NCBI RefSeq assembly: GCF_947581915.1
Contig: NZ_CANPWG010000067.1
Location: 1-64,000 of the forward strand
Direction of reading: 5' to 3'
DNA length: 64,000 nt
From: Candidatus Palauibacter scopulicola
GTDB taxonomy: Bacteria; Gemmatimonadota; Gemmatimonadetes; Palauibacterales; Palauibacteraceae
Shown here: piece after piece, positions 52,088 to 54,434 of the stretch
How positions within the stretch are numbered: position 1 is the stretch's first letter
Layout: each line of letters opens with the position of its first letter
The notes under the pieces: generated by a model
Databases searched by the model: none
Seen by the model: only the letters and a program-made list of their open reading frames with translations
What the model was told of the DNA's origin: nothing
Translations under genes and position numbers: made by a program

Positions 52088-52201
52088 CGGTCACATCCAT
52101 CGTTGGGGAACGGAGATGCCGAACGCACGCGCTCGAAGCTCAAGCCAACGGCAGCAACCCGCAAGACGGTAGCACGCGCCACCCGGAGCGCGAAGTCGTC
52201 C

Positions 52202-53497
52202 TTACGAACCCGTGGATTTCCCGCTGAGCCGGTCGGCTCCGGCGGCGGTCGACGCCATGCATCGCTCGGCGCGGGCGGTGACCGTGCGGCGGAATCGCGA
52301 GAGCGCCTCCGAATCCAGCCCCGGAATCGATAGCTCCTCCGCCACGTCCCGTGCCTTCCGGATCACTGACTCCCCGAGTTCGGCGACCCTCCTCCGGATG
52401 AGCGGGAGTCCGACCGTCGTTTCTTCGGCAAAGGCCACCCAGTGGCGAGCGTCCATGTCGGCAAGCCTGCCGCACCCCCCGAGGGGCATGGCGAGCGCCG
52501 TTGCCAACTCCGGGTAGGCGGCCGTCATGACGAGGTCGTAGAGCGGCGCAAGGCGAGGTCGGGCGGTGTCGTACAGGAGTGAGAAGTTCTTCCCGTGCGC
52601 GTCGGCGTTGCCGACGATCAGGTTGAAGATCGTGGCGTCGAGGAGCTTGAGAACGTCGACGGCGGGGCGGAGGGCAACCCGCCGCAGGAGTTCGAAGCCA
52701 TCCTTCAGACCCGGACCGCCCTCACCTGCGTATTTGACTTCGGGCGGTATCCCGAGCGCCTGGCAGAAATCCTCCTGATGGACACGGCGGACCCGACCGT
52801 CCGGACCCGTGGATCGATCATACCGCGCGACCAGCAGGAACGTTCGGTCCCCGACTCTTCGCGGCTCCACGGATGCGACGTCCAGGCCCACTGACCGCGC
52901 GAGCCGCATCGCGAAGGCTTCGTTCTCCGTCGTGTGGGGGAAGTCGGGGATCGCCGGTTTCAGGATGTGGGTCGTGGGCTGCCCCGGCGCCGGAAGAGCG
53001 ATCCGACCGTCGACCGTGACGACGGGCAGTTTCGACTGAGCGCCGGCGAGCGACAGGCGAAGGCCTGCCTCGCCGGCGAGCAGGGGACGCCACGGCAGCT
53101 TGTCGAGCACCTCGATCAGTGCCGCGTCGTCAAGCGGTTGAGGCGAATAGTCCGATTCGAGATCGGTCGGCGATTCTCCGGGCGACAGGAGCTGGAGGGC
53201 TCCCGCCACGTCGCCGCCGAGCCGATCGAGAAGGGCGAAGTCGTTCAGGGGAGAGACGCCCAGCGACCGTGCCACCCGGTCCCGCTGGATCTCCTCAGGC
53301 AGGAGGCCGGCAAAGAAGGGGCGGCATTCGCGGCGGGGGTACGGTTCCGCACGCCTGGGGAGCGATGCGGACAGCGCCGGGGCCCGGTCGTCCCGCAGCC
53401 AGTCCTCCGCGTACGCGAACTCCAGGGCGGCGGGCCGGGGCTGCCTCAAACGGCCGACGAGCCGCCCATCCCACCAGATGTCGAGGACGCGGTTCAT
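52202..53497 (-). CDS. hipA: HipA-type serine/threonine kinase toxin
   Basis: This 431-residue protein has the whole HipA pattern: N-terminal HipA-N1 domain (LDIWWDGRLVGRLRQ), SLAGAQSKLPV near 149-158, THILKPAI with ATP-binding Lys180, TENEAFAMRLARSVGLDV, the catalytic NADAHGKNFS with Asp299, and PLYDLV with Mg-binding Asp321. HipA phosphorylates translation components and induces dormancy; HipB blocks it. The ATG overlaps the hipB stop (ATGA). Length and motifs look intact. A second, partial hipA is at the left edge of the window. Confidence 0.95.
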   Translation of the reverse strand: MNRVLDIWWDGRLVGRLRQPRPAALEFAYAEDWLRDDRAPALSASLPRRAEPYPRRECRPFFAGLLPEEIQRDRVARSLGVSPLNDFALLDRLGGDVAGALQLLSPGESPTDLESDYSPQPLDDAALIEVLDKLPWRPLLAGEAGLRLSLAGAQSKLPVVTVDGRIALPAPGQPTTHILKPAIPDFPHTTENEAFAMRLARSVGLDVASVEPRRVGDRTFLLVARYDRSTGPDGRVRRVHQEDFCQALGIPPEVKYAGEGGPGLKDGFELLRRVALRPAVDVLKLLDATIFNLIVGNADAHGKNFSLLYDTARPRLAPLYDLVMTAAYPELATALAMPLGGCGRLADMDARHWVAFAEETTVGLPLIRRRVAELGESVIRKARDVAEELSIPGLDSEALSRFRRTVTARAERCMASTAAGADRLSGKSTGS

Positions 53498-53751
53498 GTA
53501 TCGCGAACGCTGGCGGGTGCGGTCGCGTCAGCTTCGGGTGGGGGAACGATCTCGACGGAACAGCCGAGCGCCGCCAGCACCTGAAGGACCTTTCCGATCT
53601 GCGCGGTCGGTTTTCCCGCTTCAAGATCTACGATGAAGCGCAGACCCACTCCCGCGACACCCGCAAGCTCATGCTGGCGCAGCCCCGCGCTCTTGCGCGC
53701 GTTGCGGACGATTTCGCCGATATCTGAAGGCGTGACGGTTCGTTTTCTCAT
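53494..53751 (-). CDS. hipB: HipB-type antitoxin/repressor
   Basis: This 85-residue protein has an N-terminal Cro/C1 helix-turn-helix (IGEIVRNARKSAGLRQHELAGVAGVGLRFIVDLEAGKPTAQIGKVLQVLAALG). It ends in a strand and flexible tail (CSVEIVPPPEADATAP). It should bind HipA and the palindromes just upstream. The ATG at 53751 lies only 2 bp from the first palindrome, so repressor and ribosome would compete. No Shine-Dalgarno is obvious. Confidence 0.92.
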   Translation of the reverse strand: MRKRTVTPSDIGEIVRNARKSAGLRQHELAGVAGVGLRFIVDLEAGKPTAQIGKVLQVLAALGCSVEIVPPPEADATAPASVRDT

Positions 53752-53752
53752 G

Positions 53753-53870
53753 ATATTCCCGATCGGGAATATCGGGCGTCTTCAAGCCGCTTGTCAACCT
53801 TATTTTTCCCGATCGGGAATATTTGCGGGCATTCGGAACCGGCGTGAAGCAGAATTTCCCGATCGGGAAC
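53753..53870 (-). promoter_or_regulatory. Three identical 14-bp palindromes, 50 bp apart (hip operators)
   Basis: TTCCCGATCGGGAA occurs at 53756-53769, 53806-53819 and 53856-53869. The core start sites are exactly 50 bp apart. The first is extended to a perfect 20-bp palindrome (53753-53772). Known HipB operators are also palindromes in multiple copies upstream of hipBA. The array lies between hipB and tRNA-Gly; the third site is 41 bp from the tRNA. Confidence 0.85.
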
Positions 53871-53909
53871 ACGGAGGAGAAAAAGCGTCGCAGATTTCGT
53901 AATGCGAAA

Positions 53910-53982
53910 AGCGGGCGACCGGGGTCGAACCGGCGACCTTCAGCTTGGAAGGCTGACGCTCTGCCAACTGAGCTACGCCCGC
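53910..53982 (-). tRNA. tRNA-Gly (anticodon TCC)
   Basis: On the minus strand, acceptor GCGGGCG pairs with CGCCCGC, discriminator T. D-arm GCTC-AGTTGGCA-GAGC. Anticodon stem-loop TCAGC-CTTCCAA-GCTGA gives TCC, reading GGA and GGG. T-arm CCGGTTCGACCCCGG (one T-G type mismatch). Length is 73 nt. hipBA lies just downstream on the same strand. Confidence 0.93.
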
Positions 53983-54077
53983 GAGGCCGTCGAATCTGGC
54001 GACCGGGCCCCGCGGCGGGCAAGTTTTCGGGCACACGCAACGACCGCACGGGACGACGAATCCAGGAGGATGATCGA

Positions 54078-54434
54078 GTGAGCGTTCGACATGTGTCGGA
54101 GTTCGGGCTGACGCCGGTCGCCGCCGGGTCGGGGACCGAAACGCAGGTTCTCATCGGGCCGGACCAGGGGCCGAACTTCGCGCTGCGGCGCTTCGTGATG
54201 CAGCCGGGCGGGGGGATGCCGCGGCACACGAACGCGGTCGAACACGAGCAGTATGTCCTCCGGGGACGGGCCCGGGTGTCGATCGGGGACGAGACGCACG
54301 ACGTGAAGGCCGGAGACGTCGTCTACATTCCCGCGGGAACGCCGCACTCCTACGACGCCCTGGGGGATGAGCCCTTCGAGTTCCTGTGCGCCGTGCCCAA
54401 CCGGCCCGACAAGATCGAGATCGTCGACTGCTGA
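54078..54434 (+). CDS. Small cupin-domain protein
   Basis: This 118-residue single-domain cupin has motif 1 with metal-binding residues in MPRHTNAVEHEQYVLRGRARV and motif 2 in VKAGDVVYIPAGTPHSYDALGD. The His/Glu set (H, H, E, and H in TPHSY) is complete, so it likely binds a metal. Function cannot be fixed; members are isomerases, dioxygenases or binding proteins. AGGAGG lies 8-9 bp before the GTG at 54078. It stands alone, convergent with the alcohol dehydrogenase. Confidence 0.88.
   Translation: MSVRHVSEFGLTPVAAGSGTETQVLIGPDQGPNFALRRFVMQPGGGMPRHTNAVEHEQYVLRGRARVSIGDETHDVKAGDVVYIPAGTPHSYDALGDEPFEFLCAVPNRPDKIEIVDC

Follow-up and report, generated by a model that had tools for sequence, protein, structure and literature searches.

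What reads a set of identical, equally spaced palindromes ahead of a toxin-antitoxin operon, and why should the distance between them be kept? Among persistence toxin-antitoxin systems HipBA is the founding one, and a locus of Candidatus Palauibacter scopulicola (Gemmatimonadota) bears on why hipBA has several operators and may bear on its natural trigger. The locus lies in the window analysed here (the whole stretch of 64,000 nucleotides, positions 1 to 64,000 of contig NZ_CANPWG010000067.1), where three copies of one palindrome stand between a hipBA operon and a tRNA-Gly gene.

The hipBA operon and its three palindromes

The gene hipB (53494..53751, minus strand) encodes an 85-aa helix-turn-helix antitoxin and repressor of the Y4mF family, which scores 80.9 bits against TIGR03070 (curated cut-off 71.65), matches the HTH_3 domain and finds a structure match in HipB(Lp) (8ezt, E 2e-8). 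It overlaps by 4 bp with hipA (52202..53497, minus strand), the gene of a 431-aa Ser/Thr kinase toxin that is full length in one frame, with an N-terminal Couple_hipA domain followed by HipA_C, and is identical to E. coli HipA at 121 of 384 aligned positions. LSLAGAQSK (at 148, aligning with the ISVAGAQEK region of the E. coli protein), NADAHGKNFS (297) and LYDLV (319) are all present; we take these to be kinase core motifs with catalytic roles. By family, domains and kinase motifs, hipBA is here a predicted type II toxin-antitoxin system of the Y4mF type.

Upstream of hipB, the 14-bp palindrome TTCCCGATCGGGAA occurs in exact copies that start at 53756, 53806 and 53856, with start-to-start distances of 50 and 50. 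These three unstranded sites are O1 (53756..53769), which overlaps the -10 hexamer and ends 4 bp short of the hipB ATG; O2 (53806..53819), upstream of the -35 hexamer; and O3 (53856..53869), the most upstream palindrome, an exact copy whose position is conserved in relatives. The hexamers belong to a sigma-70-like promoter, TTGACA-N18-GATATT (53768..53797, minus strand, 10/12 match), which sits between O2 and O1 and is the sole promoter match within 53480-54120. Elsewhere in the window there is no further site with up to two mismatches to TTCCCGATCGGGAA, and shuffled windows contained a mean of 0.50 such sites, reaching three in 0 of 100 shuffles. Across the genome (3,616,708 bases, 79 contigs) there are three exact copies, all at hipB, and four copies with one mismatch, every one within a long reading frame. 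As in a hip array, several palindromes surround the hipB promoter and are specific to hip in this genome. An earlier note on this DNA had described three identical palindromes at exact 50-bp spacing, which the window and genome scans bear out; it had also proposed a genome-wide search for the palindrome and named a common genomic repeat as what would refute it, and with all three exact copies at this array such a repeat is ruled out in this genome. Recent tandem duplication of a 50-bp unit was considered as an origin of the array and is likewise ruled out, since no in-register repeat exceeds 17 bp and the 36-bp spacers between the sites are, by eye, unlike each other.

The same genome holds three other HipA_C loci above the cut-off, on contigs C14, C60 and C16. 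No operator array was found at the C14 and C60 loci within the first 2300 bases scanned. The C16 locus (G000:C16:11320-12593, L373) comprises another couple_hipB-like gene, the second in this genome, beside a hipA truncated by the contig end, and a different palindrome is repeated there at 28 and 27 bp.

A 49-50-bp lattice across phyla

Relatives of the operon were collected through HipA (the best 80 of 241, from named genomes) and, within the phylum, through HipB (found in 67 of 395 genomes; 30 loci). With the HipA set taken as the best 80 of 241, the collection yields 92 distinct upstream regions, of which 60 contain three sites with up to three mismatches, 15 two, 8 more than three, 7 one and 2 none. 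In these regions 148 of 161 adjacent pairs are spaced at 48-51 bp (4 at 48, 73 at 49, 59 at 50 and 12 at 51), the off-lattice intervals being 30 bp (four), 41 bp (one) and 64-66 bp (eight, at Gemmatimonadota loci). Control windows inside hipA contained 4 sites and 0 pairs in 86 windows (6 of the 92 loci gave no window). The lattice rows of the HipA tree that carry names fall in eight phyla: Pseudomonadota, Gemmatimonadota, Acidobacteriota, Lentisphaerota, Kiritimatiellota, Verrucomicrobiota, Planctomycetota and, with a variant palindrome, Melainabacteria. The suggestion that the window sites are hip operators under strong selection is upheld by the recurrence, in one phylum after another, of this palindrome and spacing ahead of hipB. 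A scan of 240 Rhizobium-class genomes found the pair pattern in 5, and six of six pairs adjoin matches to both hipB and hipA (at L646 the latter is short).

The two intervals of the array are not alike in content. Among 50 nonredundant triples, chosen for spacings of 48-51 bp, the O2-O1 interval averages 49.56 bp at a spacer identity of 31%, and is enriched for a TTGACA-like box and TAT, whereas the O3-O2 interval has no marked feature besides the A/T-rich bases flanking the palindromes. Between O3 and O2 it is distance, more than sequence, that is conserved, as the mean is held at 49.36 bp despite a spacer identity of 27%. A spacing kept within about 1 bp over eight named phyla, around a spacer that is nearly free, indicates that it is the distance as such that has a function, and offers a direct way into the higher-order HipBA-DNA complex.

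A further sample was drawn by HipA_C (PF07804), blind to operators, and comprised 200 loci from 142 Rhizobium-class, 229 Allopusillimonas-class, 145 Lentisphaerae-phylum and 194 Caenarcanales-phylum genomes. It is important to note that this sample was centred on four genomes themselves holding relatives of the window HipA, and that 80 of the 200 loci were hand-picked from score-ordered tables. Removal of 49 loci without a HipA-model match and 4 that were too short left 147, or 130 nonredundant loci, in whose upstream regions a dyad scan detected 89 pairs scoring at least 6; when every region was shuffled three times, 1 such pair appeared. Other arrays in this sample are spaced at 27-28 and 40-41 bp and use different palindromes. 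At five loci of the Caenarcanales-centred sample (L351, L352, L353, L358 and L364) an AT-rich palindrome is repeated at 41 bp.

In a FastTree phylogeny of 155 HipA proteins, reduced from 191, a single bipartition of 86 rows, with low support (47), encloses 78 of the 81 lattice rows and leaves E. coli HipA outside. Counting the operator-blind sample alone, 16 of the 19 tree rows that fall within this bipartition have the lattice, as do 3 of the 68 outside it. The lattice rows outside are L181, a GC-rich 24/48 repeat; L319, which is weak; and L336, which the dyad scan missed.

Among 115 non-identical lattice HipBs, residue 35, which lies where the recognition helix starts, is V in 96 and T in 15. 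Base 3 of the half-site is A in 105 and C in 462 instances at V loci, and A in 46 and C in 37 at T loci (Fisher p 0.002 for V versus not V over 107 loci, uncorrected for relatedness and with the 8 of 115 loci where A = C omitted). There are 11 A-rich exceptions among the V loci, 9 of them related and sharing the identical helix NVGVRFLVDLENGK, and 2 others. To judge from these alignments, the HipB recognition helix appears partly to covary with the half-site.

Proposed occupancy and geometry of the array

We consider it probable, with good though not full confidence, that the window palindromes are autoregulatory HipBA operators at which repression is cooperative, neighbouring complexes making contact in a fixed register. 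A HipB dimer, together with HipA as HipB2HipA2, would sit on each palindrome; with O1 covering the -10 and start region and O2 just upstream of the -35, occupancy would silence the promoter between them, and O3 would accommodate a third complex further upstream. The 49-50-bp spacing is probably kept because adjacent complexes have to come together at a constant rotational offset of about 4.7 turns, the contact most likely being made by HipA with HipA, as in E. coli, and the outcome would be cooperative repression with HipA held inactive on DNA. For the window array itself we infer HipB binding, HipA bridging and repression. Contacts of HipA with HipA between DNA-bound complexes have reportedly been observed in E. 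coli. Against an E. coli-like contact, Gly22 of E. coli HipA (on what we take to be its numbering and its role in that contact) aligns with Ala in the window HipA, so the E. coli contact may not transfer. HipA-HipA contacts in the higher-order E. coli complex are cited in a passage of PMC7029023.

Another arrangement would have HipB repress from independent sites, with no contact between complexes and a spacing that follows only from the flanked promoter. O1 and O2 do flank the -10 and -35 hexamers, and the O2-O1 distance would in part be promoter geometry; between O3 and O2, however, promoter scores are not enriched (mean 7.0, against 8.80 for O2-O1, over 56 triples), and yet with 27% identity that interval averages 49.4 bp among triples chosen at 48-51 bp. 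Viral pairs described below also hold the spacing without promoter enrichment. We regard independent sites as unlikely, if the best placed of the alternatives.

Slightly less likely again is a mechanism in which in-phase sites allow HipB to loop or bend the intervening DNA; looping or bending is what the earlier note took identical cores and equal spacing to imply. Equal spacing is what such a mechanism would have in its favour, and a non-integer phase could be offset by a local bend. However, at 10.5 bp per turn the mean spacings of 49.36-49.56 bp amount to about 4.7 turns, a non-integer number that leaves neighbouring sites about 100 degrees apart, and looping DNA between sites 50 bp apart is mechanically costly. 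With about 4.7 turns between sites, looping is thus unsupported in the form in which it was put.

The rotational register of neighbouring sites may be general. At 10.5 bp per turn, spacings of 28, 39, 49-50 and 71 bp correspond to 2.67, 3.71, 4.7 and 6.76 turns, from which it is tempting to suggest, post hoc, that hip arrays use one rotational register of n+0.7 turns. Phase coherence is R 0.92 and 0.93, values that are also post hoc and arise mostly from one dominant spacing per set. Exceptions are the 64-66-bp intervals of some Gemmatimonadota and viral spacings of 21 bp (one) and 36 bp (one).

Orphan palindrome pairs in viral contigs

Viral contigs were scanned for the Y4mF-type palindrome at spacings of 19-123 bp with the exact palindrome and 34-64 bp with degenerate patterns. 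Two exact palindromes with 20-50 bases between them were found in 8 contigs, all at 49-51 bp; gaps of 48-78 bases added 2 contigs (72 bp), gaps of 5-35 gave one that had already been found, and gaps of 79-109 gave none. A TTACCG half-site pattern matched 16 contigs, against 0 for a permuted palindrome of equal degeneracy, and a mixed degenerate pattern produced at least 120 matches. Among the matches listed, which occupy 142 viral stretches (L378-L519), 137 of 144 pairs lie at 48-52 bp (48 bp in 1, 49 in 54, 50 in 63, 51 in 18 and 52 in 1), the others at 21 (1), 39 (3), 60 (1) and 72 bp (2). Many of the 142 listed stretches are near-copies, and they reduce to 91 distinct arrays, 85 of them at 48-52 bp. 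Models of hipB and hipA match 2 of the 142 listed stretches, L395 and L452; viral stretches are often contig parts, so that a hipB elsewhere in the virus could escape. Both L395 and L452 look like ordinary hipBA loci, with a degenerate site at -48/-49 as the third.

The genomic settings of the viral pairs are varied. The first 103 stretches comprise 73 distinct arrays, of which 35 are between co-directional genes, 9 between divergent and 8 between convergent genes, 6 at edges, and 15 inside ORFs of more than 200 aa, some of them probably spurious. Neighbouring proteins (93 of 98 listed) matched 144 PHROG families, for example clamp loader, polymerase, ribonucleotide reductase, endolysin and tail. 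A common neighbour gene for the 50-bp pairs is rejected, no PHROG family occurring in more than two members among the 93 neighbours, and so is a promoter function, 67 distinct pairs (48-51 bp) scoring 7.54 against 7.48 with shuffled spacers (viral scores cover both strands and hip scores one, and each is to be compared with its own control only). Searches for named phages carrying five Y4mF-type loci returned short or remote similarity only. The paired sites of two stretches (L411:5705-5768 and L472:3253-3316) enclose a hairpin-like sequence that by eye resembles a terminator.

Pairs of the E. coli type, which serve as an independent test, are also present. A scan for two copies of TATCCN8GGATA separated by 5-35 bases (a spacing range of 23-53 bp) gave at least 120 matches, and among those listed (120 stretches, L520-L639) 116 of 126 pairs are at 27-28 bp (88 at 28 and 28 at 27), the rest being at 30 (1), 31 (2), 36 (1), 38 (1), 39 (1), 50 (1) and 51 bp (3). 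Among the matches listed, then, these viral pairs mostly share the 28-bp spacing of the E. coli K-12 hip operators themselves; the 120 stretches correspond to 71 distinct arrays, 64 at 27-28 bp. Matches to hip genes occur in 6 of the 120 listed stretches: the hipB model in L522, L630 and L636, E. coli HipB in L581, L615 and L636, and hipA in L636 (model) and L555 (fragment). No near match to the L522 array stretch was found in E. coli genomes, and the pair is absent from the stretch compared in four phage records (L640-L643) close to E. coli-type loci. Promoter scores of 40 E. coli-type arrays show no enrichment (7.95 against 7.97 in the control). Their neighbour proteins (87 of 148) include endolysins (7), Rz-like spanins (6), terminase small subunits (6) and HNH families (4); the L571 pair is 175 bp ahead of the terminase small subunit. 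Two Klebsiella phage records (L650:1796-1841 and L651:596-641) carry an E. coli-type pair at 28 bp, that of L650 by lysis genes.

The viral pairs without a detected hipB show that hip promoters are not the only places to have the palindrome pair, which speaks against the explanation we prefer for the window. It could be that some other regulator, common to host and phage, reads the pair and that hip promoters merely use it, a reading favoured by the 140 of 142 listed viral stretches (many of them contig parts) that have no hipB or hipA model match. Nevertheless, every pair in the 240 Rhizobium-class genomes is at hipBA, the HipB helix appears partly to covary with the half-site, and E. coli-type viral pairs adopt the E. 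coli hip spacing; we judge such a regulator improbable, a shade more so than looping.

The viral pairs look like HipB(A)-binding DNA without promoters, possibly decoys, since palindrome and spacing are proper to each HipB type and promoters are not enriched, which points to DNA that binds the host HipB(A). We tentatively hypothesize, and would put the chances at well under even, that phages of many kinds carry orphan host hip operator pairs as scaffolds or decoys that capture HipB2HipA2 and leave HipA inactive during infection, with a spacing that matches the HipB type (48-52 bp for Y4mF, 27-28 bp for E. coli) and with all hip spacings (28, 39, 49-50, 60, 71-72 bp) near n+0.7 turns. Capture could be useful, for example, when breakdown of the host chromosome removes the host operators. 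If true, this would be a protein-free counter-defence, implying that HipBA acts against phage, and stand-alone phage pairs, spaced as befits each HipB type, would tie hipBA to phage infection. A search of open-access full texts, a body of literature outside which most subscription journals fall, found no paper on viral hip operator pairs.

The neighbouring tRNA-Gly

The tRNA-Gly gene (TCC; 53910..53982, minus strand) shares the strand of hipB and lies upstream of it, as a neighbour and not as part of the system; the 41 bp that the earlier note gave between O3 and its 3' end is correct. The segment comprising hipBA and all operators (52133..53903, unstranded) is present or absent as a unit. In two genus relatives, G055 and G071, window base 52132 is joined straight to 53904, with 4 aligned bases common at the junction, and these genomes keep tRNA-Gly but have neither hipBA nor any of the three sites. 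Matching DNA for tRNA-Gly and/or the cupin gene beyond was found in 17 of 17 genus genomes searched, and the presence/absence comparison leaves out the four most distant genomes (G321, G324, G334 and G088). Sister genomes also contain hip cassettes in decay (L012, L013 and L129): G162 and G200 retain hipB, O1 and O2 with most of hipA deleted, and in G042 the cassette is reduced to fragments.

ARAGORN identified tRNA-Gly upstream of hipB at 14 of 14 genus loci scanned, representing 10 genomes (4 loci are duplicates), with the tRNA some 370-480 bp away from hipB in L011-L013. At 17 loci of other lineages it detected tRNA-Gly in 0 and any tRNA in 2 (Ala and Met). One hairpin-like match was found, at O3, which is about expectation (shuffle mean 0.7). 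The tRNA-Gly is a bystander of the hipBA array, since it is kept without hipBA in G055 and G071 and relatives occur without it. The earlier note had suggested that HipB binding may affect read-through from the tRNA into hipBA. Regulation of tRNA-Gly by the cluster of sites, or a dependence of the cluster on tRNA read-through, might be argued from the 41-bp gap, the shared strand and the 14 of 14 genus loci, but is very improbable given G055 and G071, the distant tRNA of L011-L013, the 0 of 17 loci in other lineages, an O3 hairpin at shuffle expectation and the operon's own promoter match.

Comparison with known systems

New here are the 49-50-bp lattice in eight named phyla, the partial covariation between HipB and its half-site, and the viral orphan pairs. 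For hipBA of E. coli K-12, HipB2HipA2 complexes on DNA were reportedly described by Schumacher in 2015. The hip operators of this strain, TATCCN8GGATA, have been measured as four sites at 28, 39 and 28 bp, and in passages of PMC3376134 HipB represses by cooperative binding at several palindromic operators, in which the window array resembles it. The window differs from the E. coli type in its palindrome and in a spacing of 50/50 rather than 28/39/28, and E. coli HipA falls outside the bipartition that holds the lattice. The hipBST operon of Legionella pneumophila, as described in passages of PMC10653801, has three evenly spaced operators that are bound by HipB in gel shifts; these are 18 nt long with 53-bp gaps, which by arithmetic is about 71 bp start to start. 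Three evenly spaced operators are thus common to hipBST and the window, whereas the operator sequence is another, the spacing longer and the toxin split.

In Caulobacter, hipBA1 and hipBA2 have three operator sites each (PMC8545095), and PMC7029023 describes the inverted repeats of the hip promoters as identical and placed 'in intervals consistent with' the higher-order complex of E. coli. The passages on Caulobacter in these two papers cover neither phylum-wide distribution nor viral copies. As far as those passages go, the likeness of hipBA1 and hipBA2 of Caulobacter crescentus to the window lies in three palindromic operators per promoter, identical and at regular intervals (PMC7029023, PMC8545095), and the Caulobacter operators may be the same array as that of the window. 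The feature studied here is, by that comparison, a probable autoregulatory array and an ordinary-looking member of the kind that had been noted before in Caulobacter.
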